Under the pieces are notes generated by a model, which searched no databases, was not told where the DNA came from, and saw nothing but the letters and a program-made list of their open reading frames with translations. A DNA stretch of 64,000 bases from an uncultured Candidatus Peregrinibacteria bacterium (GTDB lineage Bacteria > Patescibacteriota > Gracilibacteria > Peribacterales > Peribacteraceae), in NCBI GenBank assembly GCA_903854335.1, contig CAINVY010000005.1:124001-188000 (forward strand), given 5' to 3'. Below, piece by piece: positions 8,622-55,609 of this stretch. Made by a program: the position numbers and the translations under genes. Position 1 is the stretch's first letter; each line of letters begins with the position of its first letter.

Positions 8622-10556
8622 TCACCGTTTCCTTGTGATGGATTTGACGTTTGGCACTTGGAGAAGAGCATCGTAGAGCTCCGAATACTCCTTGGAGGAA
8701 TTCACTTCCAGTCGAATCTGATAAAGAGCGTCATGCGGAGGAAATGCATACGCTTTGAATTTAGAAATGTTGATGTTGCGCTCAGCAAAACAACGAGAGA
8801 CGTTATAGATCATTCCGGGCTTATCCAGCGTGATGATATCAATATCGATGATCGATGCGCTCTTATTCAAAACGCGAGAGCGCGGAAGAAGATTGAGGAA
8901 TTGCAAAACTCGCTGCAGAAATGTCGGTGTTCCGAGAGATGCTTTGTACAACTCCACAACCTTCCCTACGGCCAGTTGTCCCGTACCAATTTTCTCGAGC
9001 ACCCGATCGAAGGATTCCTCCCCAAGCGCAGCTGTCATCTTCTGTTGCGTAGCGCTCACGTTGAAAATCCACCAGAGCGGAAGCCGCCACTTGCGACACT
9101 CATATTCCAGAATCGATGTTCCCTCGCTCTTCTGTTCCGTTTGAGGAAGGCTCGCGAGAGACTGCTTGAGCGATTCTCGGGCTTCAATGGACTTCGCTTT
9201 CTCCAGCCACAAGACCCGTTGCCTCATCCTCCCCGGATCGCCATCGAGGAGCACAAGTTCCACCGTATCTCCGTCTTGCAATTCGAAGATGGCTTCGCGC
9301 GCCTCACCATTCACGCGGATGCTCTCGAGCGAAGAGAGAAGATCAGGATCGACGGTAAACGCGAAGTCAATGCCCGTCGCATTGCGCGGAAGCGATATGA
9401 CTTCTCCCGCCGACGTGAAGACATTCATGCGATCGAGAACCGTCTCCTTGAGATCCGAGACATAACGATCGCGATCGAACGCAGCGCGATTGAGCGACGA
9501 AAGCGCAGAACGAATGTCCGTATTCTGCTGCCCGGTCCATGCAGAGATCTTGCGATGCGCGACAAAGTTGTACATCTCTTCCGTCTGGATGCAGAGACGA
9601 AGTTCATGATTGCGCGAAAGAAAGATCGTCGTGTGCAAGGCACGATAGCCGTTGGGCTGCGGCGCGCTGATATAATCGCGAAAAGAGAGAGAATGAACGG
9701 GATATCTCGAATGAATGGACCCGAGCACGTGATAGCAATCTTCGGCGGCCGTCGATCCCTCGATCACCAGAACCACCGAGTCGATTCTGTTCGTTTCCTC
9801 CAAACGTTCGATGTTGCCATAGAGGCGCTGGTAGAGTTGATAATCGGTCATCGAAGCAAGGTGTGCATGGACGCGCTTGCTCGTCACGGAGTTGATGTGT
9901 GCGACAAACTCCTCGCGTTCCTTTCGCAACTTCTCACGCGCTTTCTCTATCGCCGCGTTCCACTGCGTATACTCCTCCGGCATGGCGATCGGGAAACAGA
10001 TATCCTCGAATATCCGCTTCCAGTCCCATAGACCGACGACTCGAGCGAAAGGCACATAGATATCCAGCGTCTCTCGCGCGATGCGCGCCTGCTTGTCGGG
10101 ACGAAGCGAACCGATGGTCTGCACGTTGTGCAAACGATCGGCAAGCTTAATCAGAATCACGCGAATGTCTTCGCTCGACACTAAGAGAAGTTTGCGCAGA
10201 GATACGACCTGTCTCAGAGAGGGTTCTCCTTCGTAAATGACTTTCGATAGTTTTGTAACGCCGTCGATGAGCTTGGCAATTTCCTCCCCAAACGTCTCGC
10301 GAATCGTTTCAAAGTCCGTCCTTTCATCCTCGAGAACGTCGTGGAGAAGCGCAACAATAATCATATCCTTCCCTGCTTCGAGCGTCGCGAGATTGATCGC
10401 AACGTGAGCCGGGTGCGTAATATATGGCTCTCCGGAAATACGCAACTGTCCGTCGTGCCACTGCTGAGCGATGTCGAAAGCACGTCCGATGTGTTCTCGC
10501 TCCTTGGCGGAAAGGTACTCCAGCGATGCCAAAAGCTCTTTCTTAAGGTCTTCCAT
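8622..10556 (-). CDS. RelA/SpoT-family (p)ppGpp hydrolase/synthetase-like protein
   Basis: 644 aa with the long RSH layout. The HD hydrolase domain has YITHPAHVA (H48), LLHDVLEDE (H72-D73, E76-D77) and KLADRLHN (D140), all metal-site residues in place. The synthetase-like domain (about 225-335) has FRDYISAPQPNGYRALHTTIF, but the G-loop region reads SKRVHAHLASMTDYQLYQRL instead of the usual GRxKxxxSIxxKM, and the DxxxxR of the next strand reads DSVVLV. TGS (about 380-440) and C-terminal ACT (about 575-644) domains follow. I infer hydrolase function is kept and synthetase function is doubtful. It follows two small minus-strand ORFs that may share its transcript. Confidence 0.88.
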   Translation of the reverse strand: MEDLKKELLASLEYLSAKEREHIGRAFDIAQQWHDGQLRISGEPYITHPAHVAINLATLEAGKDMIIVALLHDVLEDERTDFETIRETFGEEIAKLIDGVTKLSKVIYEGEPSLRQVVSLRKLLLVSSEDIRVILIKLADRLHNVQTIGSLRPDKQARIARETLDIYVPFARVVGLWDWKRIFEDICFPIAMPEEYTQWNAAIEKAREKLRKEREEFVAHINSVTSKRVHAHLASMTDYQLYQRLYGNIERLEETNRIDSVVLVIEGSTAAEDCYHVLGSIHSRYPVHSLSFRDYISAPQPNGYRALHTTIFLSRNHELRLCIQTEEMYNFVAHRKISAWTGQQNTDIRSALSSLNRAAFDRDRYVSDLKETVLDRMNVFTSAGEVISLPRNATGIDFAFTVDPDLLSSLESIRVNGEAREAIFELQDGDTVELVLLDGDPGRMRQRVLWLEKAKSIEARESLKQSLASLPQTEQKSEGTSILEYECRKWRLPLWWIFNVSATQQKMTAALGEESFDRVLEKIGTGQLAVGKVVELYKASLGTPTFLQRVLQFLNLLPRSRVLNKSASIIDIDIITLDKPGMIYNVSRCFAERNINISKFKAYAFPPHDALYQIRLEVNSSKEYSELYDALLQVPNVKSITRKR

Positions 10557-10969: not shown

Positions 10970-11158
10970 TCAGTAAATTTTATTCACTTCCGCCTGCGTG
11001 GCAGGTCGCTGAGTGCTTTCGAATGCTTCATGATATTTCCATGAATCATGAACACCGGGAACCCGCTTCTCTCCTCCAGTAATCTTCCAGTATGATGCGC
11101 GTGGGCCAAAGGTCATCCTTGGCTCTTGGAGCAGAAACTCCTTCCTCAATTCATCCAT
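10970..11158 (-). CDS. Possible 62-aa small protein divergent from ileS
   Basis: Reads MDELRKEFLLQEPRMTFGPR... and ends PATQAEVNKIY. Its ATG (11158-11156) and the ileS ATG (11157-11159) share the tetranucleotide CATG, so the two genes would start back to back. The amino-acid composition looks natural and the next minus-strand ORF begins 12 bp after its stop. There is no recognisable domain. It could instead be a chance frame in the ileS leader. Confidence 0.4.
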   Translation of the reverse strand: MDELRKEFLLQEPRMTFGPRASYWKITGGEKRVPGVHDSWKYHEAFESTQRPATQAEVNKIY

Positions 11159-14100
11159 GTTCGACCCCGTCGATCCGAAGCAGCATTTTCCGGCCCTGGA
11201 GCGCGGTATCCTCAAATACTGGCAAGAGGAAGACACGTTCAAGCGCAGCATTCATCAGCGCACGAAACGCGAGACCGGCGCGCGAGCGGGCGACGAGGCC
11301 ATTGAGGAATCCTTCAGCTTTTACGACGGTCCCCCCTTCGCCACGGGCCTCCCGCACTACGGCCACATCCTCGCCGGTACGATCAAAGACGTCATCCCCC
11401 GCTACCAGACGATGCGCGGCAAACGCGTGGAGCGCCGATTCGGATGGGACTGCCACGGGCTTCCCGTGGAGTACGAGATCGAGAAGGAGCACAACATTTC
11501 CTCCAAGAAGGAGATCGAGGAGATGGGGATCGCGACATTCAACGCGCTCTGCCGCAAGGCCGTGCAACGCTACACCAAAGAGTGGCGAACGAGCGTCGAG
11601 CGCATGGGGCGATGGGTCGACATGGATCACGACTACCGCACGATGGATCCCGATTACATGGAGAGCATCTGGTGGGTGTTCAAGCAGCTCTACGACAAGG
11701 GACTCATCTACGAAGGATACAAACCCATGCACATTTGCCCGCGCTGCCAGACGGCGCTCGCGAACTTCGAAGTCATGCAGGGATACAAGGATATTTCGGA
11801 TCTGTCGGTCACGGTGAAGTTTGAACTCGTCGACGAGCCCGGCACGTTCGTCCTCGCCTGGACGACGACGCCGTGGACGCTGCCGGGAAATCTTCTTCTC
11901 GCAGTCGGCAAAGACATCCCCTACGCACTCGTCGAGAGAGCAGGACAGCGATTCATCCTGGCCAAATTCCTCGTCGAGAAAGTGTTCGCCGGCAAGGATT
12001 GTCGGATCGTTGAGGATCTCTCCGCGGCAGACTTGGTCGGCAAGAAGTACCGACCGATCTTCCCTTATTTCGCCGACAAGTTCCCCCAAGCATTTCGCAT
12101 CGTCGCCGCGGATTTTGTCGCGACGGAAGACGGAACGGGTGTCGTCCACATCGCTCCCGGATTCGGCGAGGACGATTACAACTTGGGCAGGCGCGAAGGC
12201 ATCCCGATGCTGCAGCATGTGAAGATGGATGGGACGTTCACTTCGGACGTCTCGGACTTCGCCGGAATGGAAGTGAAGCCGAAGGACGATCCGTCGAAAA
12301 CGGACCGCAAAGTCGTCGAGTGGCTGGAGCAACAGGAGAAACTCTTCGCAAAGGAAACCTTCAAGCACAGTTATCCGCACTGCTGGCGTTGCGACTCCCC
12401 TCTCCTCAACTACGCCACCTCTTCGTGGTTCGTCGCCGTGGAGAAATTCAAAGATCAGATGCTCGAATCAAACGCGGAAACGCAGTGGGTGCCGAGTCAC
12501 CTGCGCGACGGGAGATTCGGCAAGTGGCTCGAAGGAGCCCGAGAGTGGGCCATTTCCCGCAATCGCTACTGGGGAACGCCGCTCCCGATCTGGAGATGTA
12601 TGGAGACGGGGCAGATCGAAGTCCTCGGCAGCCGCGATGATCTCTTGCGACACAAACCCGAACGCTTCACGAAGATCACGGTGCTCCGCCACGGGGAGAG
12701 CCAGGGAAACGTGTCGCCCGTCTACCAAGGGAACGTGCCGGGAACGGATCTGACCATGCGAGGAAAGAAGCAGGCGAAGGAAGCGGCGAAGGTGCTCGGC
12801 GAGCAGGACGTCTCGTGCATCTACGCCTCTCCTCTCGCGCGCACGGAGCAGACGGCGAAGATCATCGCCAAGGAGACAAGCGCATCCATCATCATCGATG
12901 ATCGTCTGCGCGAAGTGTCTTTTGGCGGCTTCGAAGGAAAGCACGTCGATTTCTCCGACCTCGCCCTCACCAAAGCACGCAGAGCGCACAAACTCCAACA
13001 TAATCAGATCGAGAGCATCTTCCACTTCTCGGGCATGGAAACCTGGCCCGAAGTGCAGGAGCGCGTCTCGGGCTTTCTCAGCGAGATCCTCTCCAAGCAT
13101 CGCGGAGAGCACATCGTGATCGTCACGCACGCGGACCCGCTGGTGAACATGAAGCACTTCTTCACAAAGGAGGATCCCGTTAAACTCTCCCACCAACCCT
13201 ATCCCCGCTTCGCCGAGCCCGTCTCCTTCTACTGGGATCATGAGACGAAAGCGCAGATGGATCTCCACAAGGAAACGGTGGACGGCCTCTTGTGGGGAGG
13301 AGGCGAAGCATCGGAAGTGCACCTCACCTGCGTGCGCCACGGAGAAACGGAGTTGAATGCGCAGCGGCTCGCACAAGGCTCAGGTGCCAATGATGACGTC
13401 TCACTGAATGAAACAGGCAGGGAACAGGCGAAGGAAACAGCGGAGAAATTGAGCGAACGCTCCTTCGATCTCATCCTTTCCTCCGACTCCGCACGAGCGA
13501 TGGAAACCGCGAAGATTCTCTCGGATCGCACCGGCGTTCCTCTCGGAGGAGCTCTGCGCATCTTGGGAGAGAGAGATTTGGGGGAATGGTCGGGCCAGTC
13601 TCTCGACACGCTCCTGCAGAAACATGGAGATAGTATCAACTCGAAAACGATCACGTTCCTGAAAACGACTCCCGATCACGGAGAATCCTTCGAAGCCCTT
13701 CTCGCACGCGCGAGGGAAGCGCGTGATCTGCTCCTCAAGAAGTACAACGGAAAACGCATCGTCATTGTCTCGCACAACGGTTTCCTGCGCGCGCTGTGCA
13801 TGGTGACGCAGAATCTCTCTTACGAAACCGCAGCTGTATTGAATCGAAAGAACGGAGAGGCCTTCGAGTTGCCCCTGCGTTCCTCACCCCAATTCCAACG
13901 CATTCCCGACGTCCTCGACTGCTGGTTCGAGAGCGGATCGATGCCGTATGCCCAGTCACACTTCCCCTTCAGCTTTCAGCATTTGCGAGGGCTGAACCGC
14001 ATTCGTTCACGCGTCACTTCCGCCATCAAATCACAGGTATCCAGTAAGAAGGCTCGCAATCCCAAGCTCCCCCCCGGCTTCCCCGCCGACTTCATCGCGG

Positions 14101-15563
14101 AGGGGATCGATCAGACGCGGGGATGGTTCTACACCCTCACGGTGCTCTCGACTGCGCTCTTCGGAAGATCGGCGTTCCAGCACTGCATCGTGAACGGGAC
14201 GGTGCTCGCAGAAGACGGCAAGAAGATGAGCAAGCGTCTGAAGAATTATCCGGAGCCGCTGGAGATCGTGGAGAAGCAGGGAGCAGATGCCGTCCGCTTC
14301 GCCCTCATGAATTCCCCCGCCGTCCGCGGTGAGGATCTCCGCTTCTCCGCGAAGAGCGTCGAAGATGCGTTGCGATCGGTGCTGCTGCCATTCTGGAACG
14401 TCTACGCGTTCTTCGTCACCTACGCGAACGAGGCGAAGTGGGAACCGAGCGAGACGCGCACCCATTCTCCACACCCGCTCGACATGTGGATCCAGGCCGA
14501 AACGCAGGATCTCGTGAATCGCATGACGGAGCAACTCGAGCGCTACGATCTCTCGGCAACGTGCAACGAACTTTCGGAATCAATCGATGCCCTCACGAAC
14601 TGGTACGTCCGTCTGTCGCGTCGACGCTTCGCCGGCAAGAAGGGCGTGCACGCCGGTGAGACGGGCGAAAGTGAACAGGAAGAGGATCAGAAGCAGGCCC
14701 TCCAAACGCTCTACTCCGTGCTCCTCACGATGAGCCAACTCCTCGCGCCGTTCTGCCCCTTCCTCGCAGACGCCATCTACCTAAACCTCACCAAGGAGCC
14801 CCACGGCTCCGTTCACCTGACCGACTGGCCCGCGCCTCGCGAGCTCACGAATACGGAGATGCGGATTCTGAAGAAGACACGTTCGCTCCGCATACTCGTG
14901 ACACTCGGCCTCTCGCTGCGTTCGGAGAAGAAGATCAAAGTGCGCCAGCCGCTACTCAGCGCAACGCTGGTGCTCCCACCCTCGCTTCGCGATGAGCCGT
15001 TCACGGATGAAGAGCTCTCGCTCCTGCAGGAAGAACTGAATGTGAAGCGCATCGACGTGCGGGACGATGCCGCGGGGTTCGCCCATCCGATCGTCCAGGT
15101 GGACGCGCGCAAAGTGGGACCACGACTCGGCGGACGCGTACAAGAAATCATCGCGGCCGGTAAGCGCGGAGAATTCACGGAAGGGAAGGATGGGTCGATC
15201 CTCATCGGCGAAGAGCGCCTCTCTCCCGACGAAGCGAAGATCGTGTACGTCGGAGACGAAGGGCTGGACATCGCCGCAGACAAGGGATTTGTGGTGAGTC
15301 TCGACACGCACATCACCGAGGCATTGCAATTCGAAGGGTGCGGCCGCGACCTCATCCGCGCCATTCAACAGGAACGCAAAGGTGCGGGGATGGCCATCGG
15401 AGATCGCATCGTGCTCTCGATCATCGGCGCCGACGACGTCCTCTCCGCCTGCAAGGACGCCATTCTCCAGGAGACGAACGCGGTGCTGGGAGAAGCGTCG
15501 GGGGAAGATCGTCACGTGGAAATCAACGGAAAGGATGTGATCTTCCGTCTTCAGAAACTCTGA
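11157..15563 (+). CDS. ileS: Isoleucyl-tRNA synthetase with two inserted histidine-phosphatase domains
   Basis: 1468 aa, about 400 longer than usual. Class I motifs are intact: HYGH (67-70) and KMSKR (1023-1027), with the DCWFESGSMPYAQ block of eukaryote-like IleRS. After PIWRCMETGQIEVLGS a first histidine-phosphatase domain (about 504-690) has RHGES (511), SPLARTEQT, REVSFGGFEG and VIVTHAD. The IleRS DLHK motif (702-705) follows, then a second domain (about 721-900) with RHGET (727), SDSARAMET, ERDLGEWSGQ and VIVSHNG, before RIPDVLDCWFESGS. Both phosphatase domains keep the two histidines, arginine and acidic residue of the family. They flank the DLHK element within the catalytic half, so they are true insertions, not a terminal fusion. 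Aminoacylation is expected; the phosphatase substrate is unknown. Confidence 0.96.
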   Translation: MFDPVDPKQHFPALERGILKYWQEEDTFKRSIHQRTKRETGARAGDEAIEESFSFYDGPPFATGLPHYGHILAGTIKDVIPRYQTMRGKRVERRFGWDCHGLPVEYEIEKEHNISSKKEIEEMGIATFNALCRKAVQRYTKEWRTSVERMGRWVDMDHDYRTMDPDYMESIWWVFKQLYDKGLIYEGYKPMHICPRCQTALANFEVMQGYKDISDLSVTVKFELVDEPGTFVLAWTTTPWTLPGNLLLAVGKDIPYALVERAGQRFILAKFLVEKVFAGKDCRIVEDLSAADLVGKKYRPIFPYFADKFPQAFRIVAADFVATEDGTGVVHIAPGFGEDDYNLGRREGIPMLQHVKMDGTFTSDVSDFAGMEVKPKDDPSKTDRKVVEWLEQQEKLFAKETFKHSYPHCWRCDSPLLNYATSSWFVAVEKFKDQMLESNAETQWVPSHLRDGRFGKWLEGAREWAISRNRYWGTPLPIWRCMETGQIEVLGSRDDLLRHKPERFTKITVLRHGESQGNVSPVYQGNVPGTDLTMRGKKQAKEAAKVLGEQDVSCIYASPLARTEQTAKIIAKETSASIIIDDRLREVSFGGFEGKHVDFSDLALTKARRAHKLQHNQIESIFHFSGMETWPEVQERVSGFLSEILSKHRGEHIVIVTHADPLVNMKHFFTKEDPVKLSHQPYPRFAEPVSFYWDHETKAQMDLHKETVDGLLWGGGEASEVHLTCVRHGETELNAQRLAQGSGANDDVSLNETGREQAKETAEKLSERSFDLILSSDSARAMETAKILSDRTGVPLGGALRILGERDLGEWSGQSLDTLLQKHGDSINSKTITFLKTTPDHGESFEALLARAREARDLLLKKYNGKRIVIVSHNGFLRALCMVTQNLSYETAAVLNRKNGEAFELPLRSSPQFQRIPDVLDCWFESGSMPYAQSHFPFSFQHLRGLNRIRSRVTSAIKSQVSSKKARNPKLPPGFPADFIAEGIDQTRGWFYTLTVLSTALFGRSAFQHCIVNGTVLAEDGKKMSKRLKNYPEPLEIVEKQGADAVRFALMNSPAVRGEDLRFSAKSVEDALRSVLLPFWNVYAFFVTYANEAKWEPSETRTHSPHPLDMWIQAETQDLVNRMTEQLERYDLSATCNELSESIDALTNWYVRLSRRRFAGKKGVHAGETGESEQEEDQKQALQTLYSVLLTMSQLLAPFCPFLADAIYLNLTKEPHGSVHLTDWPAPRELTNTEMRILKKTRSLRILVTLGLSLRSEKKIKVRQPLLSATLVLPPSLRDEPFTDEELSLLQEELNVKRIDVRDDAAGFAHPIVQVDARKVGPRLGGRVQEIIAAGKRGEFTEGKDGSILIGEERLSPDEAKIVYVGDEGLDIAADKGFVVSLDTHITEALQFEGCGRDLIRAIQQERKGAGMAIGDRIVLSIIGADDVLSACKDAILQETNAVLGEASGEDRHVEINGKDVIFRLQKL

Positions 15564-15603: not shown

Positions 15604-15975
15604 GTGCCCCTCCCTCTGCGCATCACCCTCCGCGTCGCCGCTTCCATCACCCTCGTCTGGGCACTGGCGACATATTTGCCCCAGTACTTCATCATCACGG
15701 GAGGTTGGCGCGGCTACGTCGTGGTCGGGCTCCTCCTCGCCATCATGAATATGACGATCCGGCCGATTCTCTCCCTGCTGACCTTTCCGCTGCGGCTCGT
15801 CGCGTCGCTCGTCGCCTTCCTTATCGCCAACGGCATCTTCCTCTGGCTCGCGCTCGAGGCGAGCAAATCACTCGACCCCTCGCTCACCACCTTCCACATC
15901 GCCACGGGTTTCGAGGGATGGGCCGTGGCCATCCTCTGTATCGGAATCACAAACTGGATTCTAAAATTCCTCTGA
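15604..15975 (+). CDS. Phage-holin-like (Phage_holin_4_2 type) small membrane protein
   Basis: 123 aa with four predicted transmembrane helices. The pattern RGYVVVGLLLAIMNMTIRPILSLLTFPLRLVASLVAFLIANGIFLWLA (read across residues 38-85) matches the widespread bacterial membrane family of the phage holin 4_2 type, whose N-x-x-[IV]-[RK]-P and F-P signature is visible. The role in bacteria is not established. It follows ileS after 40 bp and could be on the same transcript. No sign that it belongs to a prophage. Confidence 0.75.
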   Translation: MPLPLRITLRVAASITLVWALATYLPQYFIITGGWRGYVVVGLLLAIMNMTIRPILSLLTFPLRLVASLVAFLIANGIFLWLALEASKSLDPSLTTFHIATGFEGWAVAILCIGITNWILKFL

Positions 15976-31343: not shown

Positions 31344-31751
31344 TGGTGGAGATGCCGGGAGTTGAACCCGGGTCCAACGTGTAGCCCGATTGTCCGTACC
31401 GTCATGGACCTTCCATTTCTCGCAGCCGTCAGGAAGGAACAAGGAAAGGCGCGAGGGATGATGCCGGAAAATTCGTGGCCGTCACGACATCAGATGACGG
31501 CACCGTCTCGCTGATGACGCCTCATCCCCGTAGCGAGAATCGGAGGGGAGACGTGTTTCCAAGAGTGGAAACTTAGGCGAAGGCCAGAACCGGGGAGCTC
31601 AGACGAGCCAAGACACCTTCGGCAATGGCGTTTGCTTTGCTAACTAAAGAGTTGGCAAGTATTGGTTGCAACGGTGGGTGACGGGAACTGTTGCCATCCC
31701 GGACGGAGACAGAATCGAACCAGAATCACGCTGTCGAAGCCTGTCATCCCC
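31344..31751 (-). ncRNA. ssrA: Transfer-messenger RNA (tmRNA)
   Basis: 408 nt. The 5' end GGGGATGACAGGCTTCGACAG pairs with the 3' CATCTCC of ...GGTTCAACTCCCGGCATCTCCACCA (CCA encoded at 31346-31344), forming the tRNA-like acceptor. The resume codon is GCA at 31635-31633 and the reading frame runs to TAA at 31575-31573, giving the tag ANAIAEGVLA then RLSSPVLAFA. The 20-aa tag is twice the length of the E. coli one and ends VLAFA. The molecule rescues stalled ribosomes with SmpB (not in this window). It lies 58 bp downstream of a sensor kinase gene on the same strand. Pseudoknots are likely but were not folded. Confidence 0.95.
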
Positions 31752-40672: not shown

Positions 40673-40747
40673 TCCTCGGTAGCTCAGTGGTAGAGCAGGG
40701 CGCTGTTAACGCCAAGGTCGCTGGTTCGAGTCCAGCCCGAGGAGCCA
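40673..40747 (+). tRNA. tRNA-Asn (anticodon GTT)
   Basis: 75 nt: acceptor TCCTCGG/CCGAGGA, D-arm AGCTCAGTGGTAGAGC, anticodon loop CTGTTAA with GTT, T-arm GCTGG-TTCGAGT-CCAGC, discriminator G and encoded CCA. Its 3' half (from 40706) is antisense to the last codons of the serine recombinase gene, so it marks the left edge of the genomic island. Confidence 0.97.
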
Positions 40748-42250
40748 TTCTCCATTTATTATAACAGCACGATTCTCCAGCATTGTTTGGACGATTTTCG
40801 TGTAATCAACGCTGTCTATAGACCTGTTCTTTATGGCAATTCGATCAAAGAAAAGTGAAATCAGGTGACGTTTGAGGTGCGGTGGTGCATCCATGTAGGT
40901 CTGATGCAGGTCATCGGTCAGTTCCATGAAGCGAGCGAAGATGTCTATGTTACTTTTCCGCTTCTGATTGAGTTCAATCAACTGCTGTTCGAGAACTGCA
41001 ATTTCTCTGGAGTATTCGGCAGCTTTCCGTCTGAACGTTTCCGCATCGACAACTCTATCAGCACGATCATCCTCAAGATTGCTTCGCCGTTGTCGTAGCT
41101 TCATCTTCCTGTTCTCAACCTGTCGGATTTGTTTATCGACTCCAGAGTGAGTCTCTACAAGGATTTCCTTTGCCCTTGCAACAATCCTTTCCATGAGCGG
41201 CAAAGTGAATTGAATCTTTCGGAATTGCTCAGCAATCAGCTCTTCCAGAACATCTGCACGAATATTCTGACCGACGTTCGAATGTTTCTTCAGAGTAAGC
41301 GAACAATGGTAGTACGATGCTCCATTCTTCTGGTTGTGGATTTCGGCAGTCATTCGACCACCGCAGATGCCACACTGCAGTGCACTCCTCAGAAAGAATC
41401 TTTCTGAGTGTTTGCGCTCACGATTCGCATGATGGTTGAGTGCTGCCATACGTGCCTGACACGCATCATACGTTGCCTTGTCGATCAACGGCTTGTGATT
41501 GCCTGGATATAGCTGCCCCTTGAACTCCATCATGCCGTAATAAAAAGGAGAATTGATCATGGCAACGAAGCTAGACTTAGGCAGTGCTTTGCCATGACGT
41601 GAGCGTAGGCCTTTGGAATACATGATGCCGTTGAGATCGGTACAGTTGTAACCACCAGTGGCAAGCAGTGAAAACGCCTCAGCCACGAGTGCAGACTGAT
41701 TCTCATCTTGCAGTACCTCGTTGTGCGGGTTGTCCTTCGTACCAGTGTTCTCATTTTTATACCCGATGGGAGCCCATCCAGGCCATTCCCCTTTCTCTAT
41801 TTTTCTCAGCATGGCACGGCTCGTTTTCGCTCCGTAGAGGTTGCTATAGAACTCATTGATGCTCGACATGATGCCATCCATCATTGTGCTCTCTGGAGTA
41901 TCCATCTCTGTGAAAGGCTGATTGACGGCAACGAGACGGCATCCATGTTTCTTGAGAATCTGTTTCACTATTTGATGGTCATGTGCCGATCGTGAGAAAC
42001 GATCTGTTTCTGATACGAGAAAGTAATCAACCTTATTCTCTTTGATGAAATCCAAAGCATCGAGGAATCCTGGTCTCCCTTCAATTGACCTCCCACTCTT
42101 GCCATCATCACGAAACCTTCTGAGGATGGTGATGCCCTTCTGCTCACCATACTTGTCGCACATGACGAGTTGATTCTCGACGGACTTACCCTTTGCCTGC
42201 TCTTCATCACTCACCCTTCCATAGCTTATTCCTGTGCTTACGTTAGCCAT
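40706..42250 (-). CDS. Large serine recombinase
   Basis: 514 aa from MANVSTGISYGRVSDEEQAKGKSVENQ. The resolvase domain has the catalytic serine in YGRVS and DYFLVSETDRFSRSAHD, a recombinase domain with GWAPIGYKN and a four-cysteine zinc ribbon (LQCGICGGRMTAEIHN ... YYHC), then a coiled-coil tail. These proteins carry out site-specific integration and excision. The final residues WLLGLDSNQRPWR are encoded antisense to the tRNA-Asn T-arm, so the C-terminus of the protein is set by the attachment site. The open codons to 42304 are not used: the promoter lies there. Confidence 0.95.
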   Translation of the reverse strand: MANVSTGISYGRVSDEEQAKGKSVENQLVMCDKYGEQKGITILRRFRDDGKSGRSIEGRPGFLDALDFIKENKVDYFLVSETDRFSRSAHDHQIVKQILKKHGCRLVAVNQPFTEMDTPESTMMDGIMSSINEFYSNLYGAKTSRAMLRKIEKGEWPGWAPIGYKNENTGTKDNPHNEVLQDENQSALVAEAFSLLATGGYNCTDLNGIMYSKGLRSRHGKALPKSSFVAMINSPFYYGMMEFKGQLYPGNHKPLIDKATYDACQARMAALNHHANRERKHSERFFLRSALQCGICGGRMTAEIHNQKNGASYYHCSLTLKKHSNVGQNIRADVLEELIAEQFRKIQFTLPLMERIVARAKEILVETHSGVDKQIRQVENRKMKLRQRRSNLEDDRADRVVDAETFRRKAAEYSREIAVLEQQLIELNQKRKSNIDIFARFMELTDDLHQTYMDAPPHLKRHLISLFFDRIAIKNRSIDSVDYTKIVQTMLENRAVIINGEWLLGLDSNQRPWR

Positions 42251-42288
42251 AATCAATTGATTGTAATGGAAATAAAATGGATAACCAA
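42251..42288 (-). promoter_or_regulatory. Recombinase promoter overlapped by a 12-bp palindrome
   Basis: On the minus strand TTGGTT (42288-42283), 17-bp spacer, TACAAT (42265-42260). The palindrome AATCAATTGATT (42251-42262) covers the -10 and the predicted start and touches the ATG at 42250, so a repressor here would shut the gene off. The leader is only about 3 nt. A small ACCCC/GGGGT hairpin lies upstream at 42298-42311. Confidence 0.45.
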
Positions 42289-42619
42289 AGGCTGAAAACC
42301 CCACTCGGGGTCGTGACTTTCACTATCCACTTTTTTGGTCGTAGAACCGGACATCAGAAGCACCATTTTATTGTCCGTTTTGGGGTGGAAATGCCACCTT
42401 TCCTCTATTTTGAGCCATTTTCCATGTTTTCAGGGGTCATGTGAGCATGTGGAGCGGGTGTGCCTGTTACATACTTGAGTTGAGAGAGGTTTGAATGTTG
42501 GTTAGGTAGTTGAGATGGGGTTTGAAAAATCAGGCATGTTATAAGTCAAAAGACGAGGTTCAGGCATAAGCAACACTTCGCAGAAGCGCATCGGTGCTAT
42601 AAGCTGCTCGTATATTTCT
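42289..42619. other. Divergent intergenic region between recombinase and hsdR
   Basis: No gene seen in 331 bp. It contains the hairpin at 42298-42311 and, on the plus strand, an extended -10 TGTTATAAG (TATAAG at 42540-42545) with no good -35, a possible start for hsdR 75 bp upstream of its ATG. Sequence between 42320 and 42500 shows no strong repeat or open frame. Confidence 0.4.
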
Positions 42620-45316
42620 ATGAAGATGCAGCCCAATTCACCAAAAACTTCTGAGTGGCTTACTCGCAAACATCTCATCGACCCGATGCTCAAAGCAGCG
42701 GGGTGGAAGATAGTGCCATTCGAGGAAGGTCGCAGCCTGGACTCCTACGAGGGTTGTGCGGTGGAAGAGTACCCCACTGACAATGGGCCTGCAGACTATG
42801 CTCTCTGTGCACTGGGAAAGGTGCTCGGTGTAGTCGAGGCGAAGAAACTGACACTTGGCCCACAGAGTGTCCTTACTCAGGCAGAGCGTTATTCCCAAGG
42901 TCTGGCTTCGAGCCCTCTGAACTTCCGTGGTTATTATGTGCCATTCTTATATGCCACGAATGGCGAAATACTTTGGTTCCATGACATACGCCCTGAGCAC
43001 TCACGTTCCCGCAAAATCTCCCACTTCCATACACCAGCTGCACTCATAGAACGATTGGAGCAACCATTCGATCAGTCATGCTCTGAACTGTTGAGACTTC
43101 CCAACGACAATCCTCGCCTTCGTCCTTATCAAATCGAAGCGAGTGAGGCTATTGAACATGCCATTGCTGCACACAAGCGACTCATGCTCGTTGCAATGGC
43201 AACAGGCACCGGGAAGACTTTTACGACTGTGAATGAGGTTTACCGTCTCATGAAGTCCGGTGTTGCCAAGCGCGTGTTGTTCCTTGTGGATCGTCGTGCA
43301 CTCGCAGCTCAAACTGTCCGTTCGTTTGCATCATATGATGCTGAACCGGGACTCAAATTCAATCAGGTCTATGAGGTCTATAGCCAGAAGTTTCAGAGGG
43401 AGGACTTTGGCGAGGATGAAAAGTTTGATCCCAAGGTGCTTCCTACGGGGCATCTCATCAACCCGAAGCCTGGACATGCGTTTGTGTACGTCTGCACCAT
43501 CCAACGCATGGCCATCAATCTCTTTGGCCGTGATGCGGTGTGGCAGTCCGAGGATACGATTGATGACGATGCGGACAAACTGGACATTCCTATCCATGCC
43601 TTTGATCTGATCGTTGCGGATGAGTGTCATCGTGGTTACACCTCCTCCGAGGTCTCTGTGTGGCGACAGACCCTCGACCATTTCGATGCAATCAAGATTG
43701 GTCTCACCGCCACGCCTGCCAGTCACACTACTGGGTATTTCCAAGAGAAGGTCTATGAATATCCGTACCTTCGAGCAGTGCGCGAAGGCTTCTTGGTGGA
43801 CTATGATGTAGTGACCGTCAAATCCGATGTGCGCATGAAGGGCGTGTTCTTGAAGGAAGGTGAACAGATTGCTCTCATTGATCCTGAGTCGGGCTCAGAA
43901 CAGTTGGATTTGCTCGAAGACGAGCGCAAGTTTGATGCAACGGAGGTTGAGAGAAAAATCACGGCACCAGATTCCAACCGCAAAGTGTTGGAGGAGATTC
44001 GGAAATACGCGCTGGAACATGAGCAGCAGACTGGTCGATTCCCGAAGATTCTTATCTTCGCAGTGAATGACCTTCCGCATACATCTCACGCAGACCAACT
44101 TGTGGACACAGCTCGTGATATTTTTGGTCAGGGCGACAGTTTCGTGCAGAAAATCACAGGTCGAGTGGATCGTCCTCTTCAGAAAATTCGTGAGTTCCGT
44201 AACCGCGAGAATCCGAAAGTTGTCGTGACAGTAGACATGCTCACTACAGGAGTGGACATCCCTGACTTGGAATTCATCGTGTTCCTTCGTCCGGTAAAGT
44301 CCCGCATCCTCTTTGAGCAGATGATTGGACGAGGCACACGCAAAGGTGAGAGATTCCCCGATAAGTCACACTTCGTCATCTTCGATTGTTTCAATGGAAC
44401 ACTCCTTGAGTATTTCAAGAACGCCACAGGTGTCACAGCTGATCCACCATTACGCGAGAACCTCACCACACCTGAAATCATCGAACACATCTGGCAGAAC
44501 AATGACCGTGACTACAAGGTACGCTGTCTTGTGCGCCGCTTACAACGGATTGATAAGGAGATGACAGGAGAAGGACGAGAACTCTTCACAAGATATTTCC
44601 CTCAGGGTGACCTCGCTTCTTTCGCCCGAGAACTTCCTGATCGTCTCAAGGAAGGCTTCACAGAGACCATGACAGTTCTTCGCGATGCAGACTTCCAAAA
44701 CCTGATTCAACATTACCCACGCCCAAAGCGTGTGTTCATCGTGGCCTCAGAAATAGAAGATAAAGTCGAATCAGGCTGGCTCGTTCGTGGGTCAGACGGC
44801 AAAGAGTACAAACCTGAAGACTACATTGTCGCCTTCTCTCGGTTCGTACAAGAGAACCCCGACCACATTGATGCCATTCGCATTCTCCTTGATCGTCCCA
44901 AGGACTGGAGTTCAGGTGCACTCGTGGAGCTGAAGACCAAGCTCGCTTCCACACCTCAGCGCTTCACGGTGGAGAATCTGCAGAAGGCACATTCAATTAC
45001 CTATCACAAACCTCTCGTTGAGATTATCTCCATGATCAAACATGCAGCCGACGAGCATCAACCTCTCTACACCGCAGAGGAGCGGGTACGTCGTGCATTC
45101 GAGAAAGTTACAGACAAGAAGAAGTTCACTTTCGAGCAGCAGCAATGGCTTGACCGTATCCGCGACCACTTGGAACAAAACTTGAGTATTGATAAGCAGG
45201 ACTTTGAAATCGTGCCACTCTTCATCAACTTCGGTGGCTGGAACAGAGCAAATGGTGACTTCAATGGGAAACTCCTGCCTTTGTTATCTGCCTTCAATTC
45301 CTCCATCGCCAAATGA
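42620..45316 (+). CDS. hsdR: Type I restriction enzyme R subunit
   Basis: 898 aa, EcoEI/EcoKI-like R protein. N-terminal PD-(D/E)XK nuclease with D59 and VVEAKK (E73, K75), DEAD-type motor with ATGTGKT (194-200), ADECH (334-337), GLTATP and EQMIGRGTRKGE (motif VI), then the C-terminal helical domain. It translocates DNA and cuts it far from unmethylated recognition sites. Its stop overlaps the hsdM start (ATGA at 45313-45316). Sequence is more AT-rich than the flanking host genes. All catalytic motifs appear intact. Confidence 0.97.
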   Translation: MKMQPNSPKTSEWLTRKHLIDPMLKAAGWKIVPFEEGRSLDSYEGCAVEEYPTDNGPADYALCALGKVLGVVEAKKLTLGPQSVLTQAERYSQGLASSPLNFRGYYVPFLYATNGEILWFHDIRPEHSRSRKISHFHTPAALIERLEQPFDQSCSELLRLPNDNPRLRPYQIEASEAIEHAIAAHKRLMLVAMATGTGKTFTTVNEVYRLMKSGVAKRVLFLVDRRALAAQTVRSFASYDAEPGLKFNQVYEVYSQKFQREDFGEDEKFDPKVLPTGHLINPKPGHAFVYVCTIQRMAINLFGRDAVWQSEDTIDDDADKLDIPIHAFDLIVADECHRGYTSSEVSVWRQTLDHFDAIKIGLTATPASHTTGYFQEKVYEYPYLRAVREGFLVDYDVVTVKSDVRMKGVFLKEGEQIALIDPESGSEQLDLLEDERKFDATEVERKITAPDSNRKVLEEIRKYALEHEQQTGRFPKILIFAVNDLPHTSHADQLVDTARDIFGQGDSFVQKITGRVDRPLQKIREFRNRENPKVVVTVDMLTTGVDIPDLEFIVFLRPVKSRILFEQMIGRGTRKGERFPDKSHFVIFDCFNGTLLEYFKNATGVTADPPLRENLTTPEIIEHIWQNNDRDYKVRCLVRRLQRIDKEMTGEGRELFTRYFPQGDLASFARELPDRLKEGFTETMTVLRDADFQNLIQHYPRPKRVFIVASEIEDKVESGWLVRGSDGKEYKPEDYIVAFSRFVQENPDHIDAIRILLDRPKDWSSGALVELKTKLASTPQRFTVENLQKAHSITYHKPLVEIISMIKHAADEHQPLYTAEERVRRAFEKVTDKKKFTFEQQQWLDRIRDHLEQNLSIDKQDFEIVPLFINFGGWNRANGDFNGKLLPLLSAFNSSIAK

Positions 45317-52670: not shown

Positions 52671-53504
52671 CTACGACTTTCGCATTTGCTTCACTCTCCG
52701 GATGTGTCTTTCAATAGCTTCAGGGGAGTACGCTCCTTCTGCTGAAGGCGGACGACCATAACTTCCCTCATAGTATTTTCGTACCCGTTGATCGATGTCT
52801 GAATTCTTCGTAAAGCCATGATCAAGTAGGAAGCAAATTATGCTCTCGATAAACAAAGAGCTCTCATGCTTGCCACCCTGAACTAACTCTTTCGGTATCT
52901 TTTTCCGAAGTTGCTTAGTGAACCTTTGCAGAACATCACTCAGTTCTAGAATCTCTTGGATCGTGCTGTTTCCATCACCTTCGATAGTGAATTTCCCGGA
53001 AGCTTCATCGAGAGTAATTATGGTATTACCTGATCTGAATGGTTGTGATCCAATCACTTTCATCGTTGTGCCTAATCTCTTCTCAATTTCATCTTTGAAC
53101 TTGAAGTAAGTTGAGAACTTCTTCTTCTCTCCGGGCTCCCTCTCGCTTGGCAACTCAACAATGCCATACCTGATGAATGCAATGAAGAAGTCGAGCCATT
53201 CATCATTGAAATGAAACTTCTTTAGAATCTGACCATAAACCTTATCTCGAAACAGCATCCCTTCTCTTGTGCCCATATAGCCTTCTGTTCGCTCCTTGGC
53301 TTCTCTTACAGGATCATCAGCTTCAGGATCCTCTCCGATCCCCTCCTCCCTCCTCAACTCCCACATAGCTTCCAAGATTTTGTTACTCGTGAATATCCTC
53401 ATCAGAATTTTATGATACTCAACTGGAATACTCTGATGTTCCTGTATGAAGTCCAGCCATGGGAGATTCATCTTGGGTGCCATATTCATATGCTCAGAAA
53501 TCAA
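52671..53504 (-). CDS. Unknown partner protein coupled to the GmrSD-type gene
   Basis: 277 aa from MISEHMNMAPKMNLPWLDFIQEHQSIPVEYH. No recognised domain. Mostly helical and charged, with FTIEGDGNSTIQEILELSDVLQRFTKQLRKKIPKELVQGGKHESSLFIESIICFLLDHGF in the middle and an Arg/Lys-rich end (IERHIRRVKQMRKS). Its ATG overlaps the stop of the upstream GmrSD-type gene (ATGA at 53501-53504), so the two are made together. This coupling suggests a partner, immunity or targeting role in the restriction system. Confidence 0.65.
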   Translation of the reverse strand: MISEHMNMAPKMNLPWLDFIQEHQSIPVEYHKILMRIFTSNKILEAMWELRREEGIGEDPEADDPVREAKERTEGYMGTREGMLFRDKVYGQILKKFHFNDEWLDFFIAFIRYGIVELPSEREPGEKKKFSTYFKFKDEIEKRLGTTMKVIGSQPFRSGNTIITLDEASGKFTIEGDGNSTIQEILELSDVLQRFTKQLRKKIPKELVQGGKHESSLFIESIICFLLDHGFTKNSDIDQRVRKYYEGSYGRPPSAEGAYSPEAIERHIRRVKQMRKS

Positions 53505-55609
53505 TCACCATTGTCCGCCTGTTTCGCGAATGATTGTTTCACAAGTGCCATTACATCACCCAATTGGTCAGGCGAGGATAGTTCAACCTGTACATCCCCA
53601 TTCCCCCATCGCCCTTTCCCTGTGATGTCCTTACCAAGCTTCTTAGGATCATCCAATTCAGTGAACCTCATGTTCAATACGAGTTGCAGCTGATTTTTTT
53701 GGACTATCACGTCCACAAAGTTCGTATTCATCTTATAAGCGATGTAGAGCTTTAGGATTTCTTCTCGAACAGACGGATCAAGGTTGAGGATATGTGTGCG
53801 CAGCTGTTCAAACAGTTTCAACGTGTCACCTGTCAGATAGTGATGGTCAGCTCGTGTGTAGGTCTTCACTGCCTCTCCCTCCTCTTCAACTGTGTACTGC
53901 TCCAATATAGCTGGATCAACATCAGGGTATCTCCACACCTGTATTGCTTCAGTAGCCAACCTTCCTGCTCGCTTCTTGATTTCATTCTCATTCCAATGTT
54001 CCAGAGAACCTAATCCTTCGTTCAGTCGCAAAGGACTTCCAACAAACCCTACGTTGTGACCTTCTTTGTCCTTCATCCCTCGCTTGTTGATGAATGGAGC
54101 ATCACTGTATTCACTGTTATAGCCAGTGAGAGTGAGATTACCCAGCGTGTGAAGGTAAGTGGCCTGAACTTCCTTCCAGTTCTCGCCTAGCTCTGTTTTC
54201 CATTCCACAGAAAGATTGGGGTTCTGCGGCATGATGTGTTCAATTGTGTAGCCTTCGACATCCACTCTCTCTTTCCGCCCATGATTCTCAATCTTGCGCA
54301 GCCAATACACGCGACTTCTGAAGTTGTAGAGGTCTTTGTCCATCAATGCTCGCTTGAATTCGTTATCATTCGGGAATCGTCTGTAAGAGTCCTTGAGTAG
54401 CATCACAACTTTGAAACTTTCAACGTAACGTTCCTTCTTGAGTTCCTTTGTGAATCCGGCGAAAGTTTTGTTGAGTGAGTTTGTGGGAATACCACAAATG
54501 GCACGCCTGAACACATAGCTCTCAATCAGTCGTAGCATCGCTAAGAAGTCGTTGTGATTGAGAGTTCCTGCAGTGAAGTCATCGTACATTTCCAAGAGGA
54601 GCGGATAGGCAACATCCACCTTCAGTGCGTTGATGTCCGTGAAGGCTGAACGAAGTTCCTTGTCTTCCTCCTGTTCCAATGCCATTGCGACAAAGTATTT
54701 GGAGTACTTATAGATGTCCGTCACGATGTCTCGAATGCTGAGGTTGCGGTTAGCATTCGCATACACTTTGAATGCTTGGTACACCTCCTGAATGCGTGGA
54801 ATTCGCCCTGTTTTCAGAGTGAGATAGTCACGCATGAACTGGTCGAAGAACAGCGTGTAATTGATCTGTCCAAAGTTCTGCTCCATCTGAAACCAGAACT
54901 CCTCGTAGAGTGCTGTCTGCTCCTGTGGTTCCAGCCCCATAAGAACGTAGTTGCGTATTAGGTCTGCTTGGCTCAGTTCCAAACCTGTGGAGTTGAGGCT
55001 TTCGAAGATCAGTTGAGGGTTGTCATGTTCACGGTCGAGGGCAATGTCCACAATGATGAGCTTAGCGACGCCTCTGTAGAGCACATCTGGGTCAATGTTT
55101 GCCTTGGCAATTTGATCCTGAAAATATCGGAAGTTCTCCTCAATGCGACGGGACATTGGCTCCACAAGTTCCTTACCTTCAAAAAGACGGCACAGGGTCG
55201 TCTTGTCGGTCTGTGTAAGGATGAGTTTGTGTCGAAGATCATCCTGCTCCTCACTATTGAACAGGAAGTAGTTATTGAGTTTGCGTTGGTTCATTTCACC
55301 TCCTTCTCCCTTCTGTTGCATCGACTCTCCCAGGGCATACAGAAGGAGCGACAATGTCGTGAGTCTCTGTTGCCCATCAATAACAAGGAGCTGAGGAATG
55401 GAGGCAACCTGATAGATACCTTTCTGGATGTAAACAATGGAACCGATGAAGTGACCTGCAATGGTGTCGTCAGTTGCAGTCTTCACAATGTCCTTCCAAA
55501 GCTGCTCACACTGTGGCTGAGTCCAGCTATAAGTTCGCTGATAGATGGGAATGACGAATTGCTTGGGGCCTTTGAGGAAGTCGAGCAGCTTGGTTTCAGT
55601 GGCTTTCAT
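53501..55609 (-). CDS. GmrSD-type DUF262/DUF1524 nuclease with DUF5655 C-terminus
   Basis: 702 aa. N-terminal DUF262 (GmrS) with IPIYQRTYSW (20-29) and VIDGQQRLTTL (DGQQR, 78-82), the ParB-like nucleotide-binding part. DUF1524 (GmrD) His-Me nuclease region with YTIEHIMPQN (E457, H458) and TLGNLTLTGYNSEYSD. The last ~100 residues (LFEQLRTHILNLDPSVREEILKLYIAYKMNTNFVDVIVQKNQLQLVLNMRF) fit DUF5655. GmrSD/BrxU-type proteins cleave DNA with modified cytosines, so this is probably a type IV restriction enzyme. It heads the minus-strand cluster. Confidence 0.92.
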   Translation of the reverse strand: MKATETKLLDFLKGPKQFVIPIYQRTYSWTQPQCEQLWKDIVKTATDDTIAGHFIGSIVYIQKGIYQVASIPQLLVIDGQQRLTTLSLLLYALGESMQQKGEGGEMNQRKLNNYFLFNSEEQDDLRHKLILTQTDKTTLCRLFEGKELVEPMSRRIEENFRYFQDQIAKANIDPDVLYRGVAKLIIVDIALDREHDNPQLIFESLNSTGLELSQADLIRNYVLMGLEPQEQTALYEEFWFQMEQNFGQINYTLFFDQFMRDYLTLKTGRIPRIQEVYQAFKVYANANRNLSIRDIVTDIYKYSKYFVAMALEQEEDKELRSAFTDINALKVDVAYPLLLEMYDDFTAGTLNHNDFLAMLRLIESYVFRRAICGIPTNSLNKTFAGFTKELKKERYVESFKVVMLLKDSYRRFPNDNEFKRALMDKDLYNFRSRVYWLRKIENHGRKERVDVEGYTIEHIMPQNPNLSVEWKTELGENWKEVQATYLHTLGNLTLTGYNSEYSDAPFINKRGMKDKEGHNVGFVGSPLRLNEGLGSLEHWNENEIKKRAGRLATEAIQVWRYPDVDPAILEQYTVEEEGEAVKTYTRADHHYLTGDTLKLFEQLRTHILNLDPSVREEILKLYIAYKMNTNFVDVIVQKNQLQLVLNMRFTELDDPKKLGKDITGKGRWGNGDVQVELSSPDQLGDVMALVKQSFAKQADNGD

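Follow-up and report, generated by a model that had tools for sequence, protein, structure and literature searches.

The 64,000-nucleotide stretch of DNA analysed here (referred to as the window) harbors the gene of a type-2-like isoleucyl-tRNA synthetase (IleRS), which hosts two histidine phosphatase (HP) domains, one on either side of its DLHK element. The gene, ileS, is a single unbroken open reading frame with its ATG at position 11157 and its stop at position 15563, and it encodes a protein of 1468 aa. Sequence and structural model together establish the anatomy, the motifs and the fold of this protein as well as the near-universal retention of the catalytic residues among embedded HP domains, and the window gene probably represents a bifunctional synthetase-phosphatase in which the nested HP domains are active. 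The genome to which the window belongs has a size of 1.17 Mb and is 96.6% complete, and its named relatives are Peribacteria/Peregrinibacteria, i.e. they belong to the CPR (Patescibacteria). Synthetases bearing extra domains are well known; we found no description of a phosphatase-bearing IleRS in the open-access literature, and domain databases may carry such architectures uncommented.

Architecture and predicted structure of the window IleRS

The window protein passes the ileS equivalog model TIGR00392 of NCBIfam (841 bits vs a cut-off of 621), and Pfam recognizes tRNA-synt_1 (in three pieces), two His_Phos_1 domains, Anticodon_1 and DUF5915 within it. The initial annotation had read the IleRS motifs HYGH and KMSKR in one frame with two RHGE motifs and had described two insertions flanking DLHK. 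Indeed, we could locate all four motifs at exactly the residues given there, and the matches to Pfam and TIGR00392 confirm that the protein hosting the two HP inserts is a real IleRS (Table 1). The motifs of the CP1 editing domain, WTTTPWTLPGN (235-245) and GTGVVHIAP (326-334), are intact. A second IleRS gene was looked for in the window genome and none was seen, and the ValRS of this genome, encoded by a separate gene with an open frame of 907 aa, is without an HP match. Judged from its sequence, the window IleRS is an essential, ordinary type-2-like host, with an intact anticodon domain and intact sites for charging and CP1 editing.

Table 1 Features of the window ileS gene and of the encoded protein. 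Coordinates refer to the window; amino acid positions refer to the 1468-aa protein.
Feature	Coordinates	Strand	Evidence
ileS, type-2-like IleRS, 1468 aa	11157..15563	+	ORF, Pfam, NCBIfam
HYGH (HIGH-type motif), aa 67-70	11355..11366	+	motif position
CP1 editing domain, ~aa 209-402	11781..12362	+	Z 24.6 vs 1wk8, motifs
RNRYWG, aa 468-473, closes first IleRS segment ahead of site A	12558..12575	+	
HP domain A, ~aa 503-697	12663..13247	+	Pfam; aa 504-701 Z 22.8 vs PhoE 1h2e
DLHK element of IleRS, aa 702-705, separates inserts A and B	13260..13271	+	
HP domain B, ~aa 720-908	13314..13880	+	Pfam; aa 720-911 Z 25.2 vs 4ij6
DCWFESG, aa 921-927, re-entry into IleRS Rossmann fold	13917..13937	+	
KMSKR (KMSKS-type motif), aa 1023-1027	14223..14237	+	motif position
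Anticodon_1 (anticodon-binding domain), aa 1109-1266	14481..14954	+	Pfam
DUF5915, C-terminal, aa 1290-1466	15024..15554	+	Pfam

Scored singly, the two HP domains reach 125 and 135 bits with PF00300 and thus both pass the gathering cut-off of 21.7 bits, and for the whole protein the E value of His_Phos_1 is 1.2e-74. Given these scores and the same nesting in about 100 independent genomes, the HP match is far beyond chance. The catalytic set is complete in domain A (R511, H512, R562, E586 and H658, with RHGE at 511-514) as well as in domain B (R727, H728, R780, E805 and H873, with RHGE at 727-730), so that the conserved Arg, the acidic residue and the second His, which had been noted to follow each RHGE, belong to a full set in either case. 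Compared with insert-free relatives, domain A is placed between the GSxxEL stretch, which follows RNRYWG, and DLHK, and domain B is placed between DLHKxxVD and RIPEVLDCWFESG. In terms of a 1027-position core profile, the two insertions correspond to site A (~485-488) and site B (~504-506), and they fall into what we take to be the CP2-like loop region of the window IleRS.

We modelled residues 1-1110 of the window IleRS with AlphaFold2 using 31 sequences. The model has a mean pLDDT of 80.9 and a pTM of 0.75, with poor confidence at residues 923-969 and in two short stretches adjoining the HIGH motif (near 59-63 and 99-102). Its IleRS part aligns with the type-2 IleRS of Priestia (8c8u; Z 33.3, 657 residues) and also with the yeast IleRS, and the isolated CP1 editing domain aligns with the model as well. 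From the Z scores of domains A and B against known HP structures (Table 1) we conclude that both inserts are predicted to be whole HP folds. In the predicted structure, which the initial annotation had named as one way to check its reading, the fold of the host IleRS is unbroken by the two inserts.

The systems closest to the window protein each share a part of this architecture. The type-2 IleRS structures listed (Priestia megaterium IleRS2, 8c8u; yeast, 8wnd) are alike in fold and motifs of their catalytic, editing and anticodon parts, but they are without a nested HP, whereas the window IleRS has one at site A and one at site B. Members of HP branch 1 (the Hydrogenobacter phosphoserine phosphatase 4ij5, PhoE 1h2e and CobC 6nru) are alike in fold, RHG motif and catalytic residues; unlike these known members, the HPs of the window are nested in a tRNA synthetase and singly remain under the substrate-specific cut-offs. 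A precedent for an enzyme domain borne by an IleRS is given by the NCBIfam model ileS_w_GNAT (NF040702), in which, however, the domain is a GNAT and not a phosphatase; the window protein scores 264 bits with this model vs a cut-off of 1999, and a GNAT match is absent according to Pfam. Finally, the CP1 editing domain of IleRS, ValRS and LeuRS is likewise hydrolytic and embedded in the catalytic core of class Ia synthetases, but CP1 acts on the wrong aminoacyl-tRNA or adenylate and is intact in the window IleRS, whereas the HP represents an additional, unrelated phosphatase fold.

With regard to the surroundings of ileS, a small membrane protein (15604-15975, + strand), which is holin-4-like by eye, is encoded directly after ileS, and it is found beside ileS in most loci of the family. 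A control of ileS by a tRNA or riboswitch element was rejected by an Rfam scan of the whole window, which gave a tmRNA and a tRNA-Asn only. The tmRNA (31344-31751, - strand) carries an unusually long tag peptide of 27 residues according to the ARAGORN prediction. At window positions 40673-42304, the tRNA-Asn and a serine recombinase gene of the opposite strand overlap at the 3' end of the tRNA. Beyond them, the genes of a type I-like restriction subunit (42620-45316) and of an endonuclease of the GmrSD type (53501-55609) follow, and the region resembles a defence island that has integrated at a tRNA.

Distribution and history of the HP inserts

The inserts are conserved in the relatives of the window IleRS, as each of the 50 IleRS examined from its family carries at least one HP domain (two in 41, one in eight and three in one). 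Outside this family, a sample of the class comprised 42 IleRS with one to three HP domains and 21 without. Across the class, the IleRS insertions are located at four sites, which are, besides A and B, site C (~537-540 of the core profile, between DCWFESG and FPADFIAEG) and site D (~668-672 of the core profile, downstream of KMSKS). Among the IleRS with three HP domains, two combine sites A, C and D (L156 and L184) and one combines sites B, C and D (L185), and the IleRS of L119 joins an insert at site A with two tandem copies of the site-B type. HP domains are also present in six ValRS of the families f6 and f15, with one or two domains each at the counterpart of site A, and the HP-bearing ValRS that were scanned (3/3) score over the curated ValRS cut-offs. 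A sample of 380 genomes drawn from the whole phylum comprised at least 45 genomes of other classes in which HP is part of a frame of 863-1281 aa, and the examples of these long frames that were fetched are IleRS and ValRS according to the core profile. In the genomes sampled, the pattern is phylum-wide, multi-site and multi-enzyme.

For 16 genomes of the class every HP match was listed; in these, long-frame HP occurs in IleRS and ValRS only, and no match fell into LeuRS or any further synthetase. As a control, we used 28 genomes with insert-free relatives of the window IleRS, mostly spirochaetes, in which all HP frames have a length of at most 394 aa. From this we conclude that an association with IleRS is not typical of the HP family in general. 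Some close relatives without any HP exist within the families f9, f10, f14, f21 and f22, which indicates that the HP function is dispensable there. In other CPR genomes, HP is also fused to membrane proteins, which are transporter-like and DedA-like by eye (L230, 624-aa frame, and L231, 446-aa frame).

HP is not the only guest of these synthetases. A Nudix domain is present near the start of CP1 in the IleRS of L017 (aa 232-379), L205 (aa 225-367) and L212 (PF00293, 66-86 bits), and by eye also in those of L209-L211. The IleRS of a class relative (L207) contains a GNAT-like insert, and a serine hydrolase is located at site B in L155, slightly under the cut-off in L184 and by eye in L208. In addition, a Y1 (IS200-like) transposase is nested in the IleRS of L203 (aa 335-565; PF01797, 55 bits). 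In L156, the stretch of aa 650-915, which follows the HP at site A, is without a Pfam or PHROG match and shows two HxT-type motifs that are 2H-phosphoesterase-like by eye.

The core tree of IleRS requires a minimum of 18 gain or loss events for site A, 10 for site B, 6 for site C and 7 for site D; it is a quick tree, on which gains, losses and transfer are indistinguishable. Regarding the origin of the pair, the initial annotation had allowed for a duplication as well as for a separate origin of the two inserts. On the HP tree, the A domains of the family represent one clade (support 99), and its B domains join the site-B domains of family f9 (support 95). Since A and B are not sisters on this tree, we rejected a recent tandem duplication as the origin of the pair, and of the two options it is the descent from different lineages that stands.

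The window IleRS and its closest relative are identical by 84% in the core, by 86% in domain A and by 39% in domain B, and the B domain of the window groups in an 8-member clade (100/98) that excludes this relative. These values are suggestive and hint that lineages have replaced or exchanged their site-B domains, which we do not claim, since the sisterhood of the two B domains is compatible with the AU test (p 0.14). The mean identity is 45% for site-B domains, 60% for A domains and 65% for the core, and dN/dS ranges from 0.08 to 0.28 for HP-A vs 0.15-0.17 for the core in three comparisons with the window. By these measures, domain A is under a core-like constraint and domain B is faster-changing.

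Catalytic state, substrate class and competing explanations

All five catalytic residues are present in 157 of the 163 embedded HP domains, at every site including that of ValRS, and the second catalytic Arg is kept in all 163. The decay of catalytic residues in homologues, which the initial annotation had considered as a sign against its reading, was therefore not what we found: the catalytic sets are conserved. In family f10 (L209-L212), the HP-profile matches are weak and the motifs are degraded in some members.

As for the substrate, neither of the two domains, scored singly, passes the cut-off of any substrate-specific NCBIfam model, and the substrates named in the initial annotation thus find no backing. 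The single domains score 91 and 107 bits with the CobC alpha-ribazole phosphatase model TIGR03162 (cut-off 162.9), 95 and 72 bits with the phosphoserine phosphatase PspA model NF045917 (cut-off 350), and 104 and 63 bits with the 2,3-BPG-dependent phosphoglycerate mutase model NF038349 (cut-off 225), and domain B scores 45 bits with the phosphoglycerate mutase model TIGR01258 (cut-off 81.7). A membership in CobC was rejected because the whole-protein score of 188 bits is the sum of two domains, which singly are both below the cut-off. The best structural and family matches of both domains are general phosphomonoesterases. A role in anti-phage defence was rejected as well, since PADLOC gave no match.

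In view of the guests described above, a tolerant landing site has to be taken seriously as a rival of a functional link, though HP dominates strongly among the inserts. According to this explanation, in-frame enzyme domains are tolerated in the exposed loops of IleRS and ValRS, and the HPs are active passengers unlinked to aminoacylation, which would work as a general metabolic phosphatase on a strongly expressed carrier protein. This would agree with the unrelated guests in IleRS loops (Nudix at core position ~213, GNAT at ~216, the serine hydrolase at site B and the Y1 transposase at ~294) and with the frequent gain and loss of HP. Moreover, the nested pair represents the only PF00300 matches of the window genome and could supply it with a general phosphatase. 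However, HP is by far the commonest insert and occupies four sites of IleRS as well as one of ValRS, and it is absent from LeuRS and other synthetases in the 16 genomes with all matches listed, and separate free-standing HP proteins are also present in many genomes, so that the supply of activity alone cannot explain the fusion. Overall, we regard the passenger explanation as rather doubtful.

Unlikely, in our view, is a purely structural or tRNA-binding function, as it had been offered in the initial annotation, in which the HP folds would stabilize the synthetase or touch the tRNA and catalysis would be irrelevant. The inserts do occupy peripheral loops of the catalytic half, and with its weak or degraded copies family f10 may harbor a non-catalytic role, but a scaffold fits poorly with the retention of the five catalytic residues across four IleRS sites and ValRS. 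In addition, family members with domain A only exist, and domain B at least is therefore dispensable for folding.

Among the analyses made, only the gene context points to a link to signalling, in which the HPs would break down signalling nucleotides, (p)ppGpp-related or other, that are made when isoleucine or valine is scarce: a RelA/SpoT-type (RSH) gene with HD/HD_4, RelA_SpoT, TGS and ACT domains adjoins ileS divergently in the window (8622-10556, - strand), and RSH is located beside ileS in further loci (e.g. L085, L090, L093, L094, L099, L110 and L014). Yet no more than 9 of the searched loci, most of which had a flank of ~1.5 kb, show this adjacency, besides two weak partial matches, and neither domain matches a family of signalling-nucleotide phosphatases, the best matches being general phosphomonoesterases. 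We consider such a link improbable.

Highly improbable is the idea that the HPs provide the glycolytic dPGM that a reduced genome would be missing: HP branch 1 includes dPGM, and within NCBIfam domain A matches archaeal-type dPGM best (104 bits vs 225), but every PGM-family cut-off is missed and an iPGM-like (cofactor-independent PGM) protein of 532 aa is encoded elsewhere in the window genome, for which reason we set a missing glycolytic mutase aside. A fusion of unrelated genes by faulty assembly, which the initial annotation had also raised, or by faulty binning, both a danger in error-prone metagenome-type genomes, is refuted by exactly recurring junctions in dozens of independent genomes with the same architecture, several of which are single-contig (e.g. 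G046 and G127).

Proposed role of the nested phosphatases

In the bifunctional synthetase-phosphatase that we favor, a type-2-like IleRS would host two independently folding, catalytically competent HPs flanking DLHK, each of which is expected to hydrolyse a phosphomonoester via the usual phosphohistidine intermediate. With less confidence, we infer that HP may be retained on IleRS (and ValRS) since it encounters its substrate at these synthetases or close to them. The most plausible role would be that of an on-board clearing module and not that of a tRNA-binding spacer, and the targets that it might dephosphorylate include a blocked tRNA end, a phosphorylated inhibitor or a side product. That the association goes beyond a spacer is indicated by the catalytic sets kept in nearly all embedded domains, which a scaffold would not need. 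Only tentatively do we propose that the synthetase itself benefits from the phosphatase in this way. Equally tentative is the more general proposal that IleRS and ValRS of the CPR might repeatedly have gained nested active phosphatases. These would work at the synthetase itself, and their targets would be tRNA ends, inhibitors of a phosphorylated or adenylate-like kind, or side products.

The recurrence of HP at multiple sites of IleRS and in ValRS across the phylum suggests an undescribed second job of a basic translation enzyme. If the clearing role holds true, class Ia synthetases would possess a previously undescribed enzyme layer of quality control or self-protection, and the Nudix, GNAT and hydrolase inserts of some relatives would represent alternative modules of the same layer. 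If HP acts at the synthetase, this would mean a new control or protection of charging in minimal, probably host-dependent cells, and if it is unrelated to the synthetase, these proteins would represent a striking natural experiment in domain insertion.
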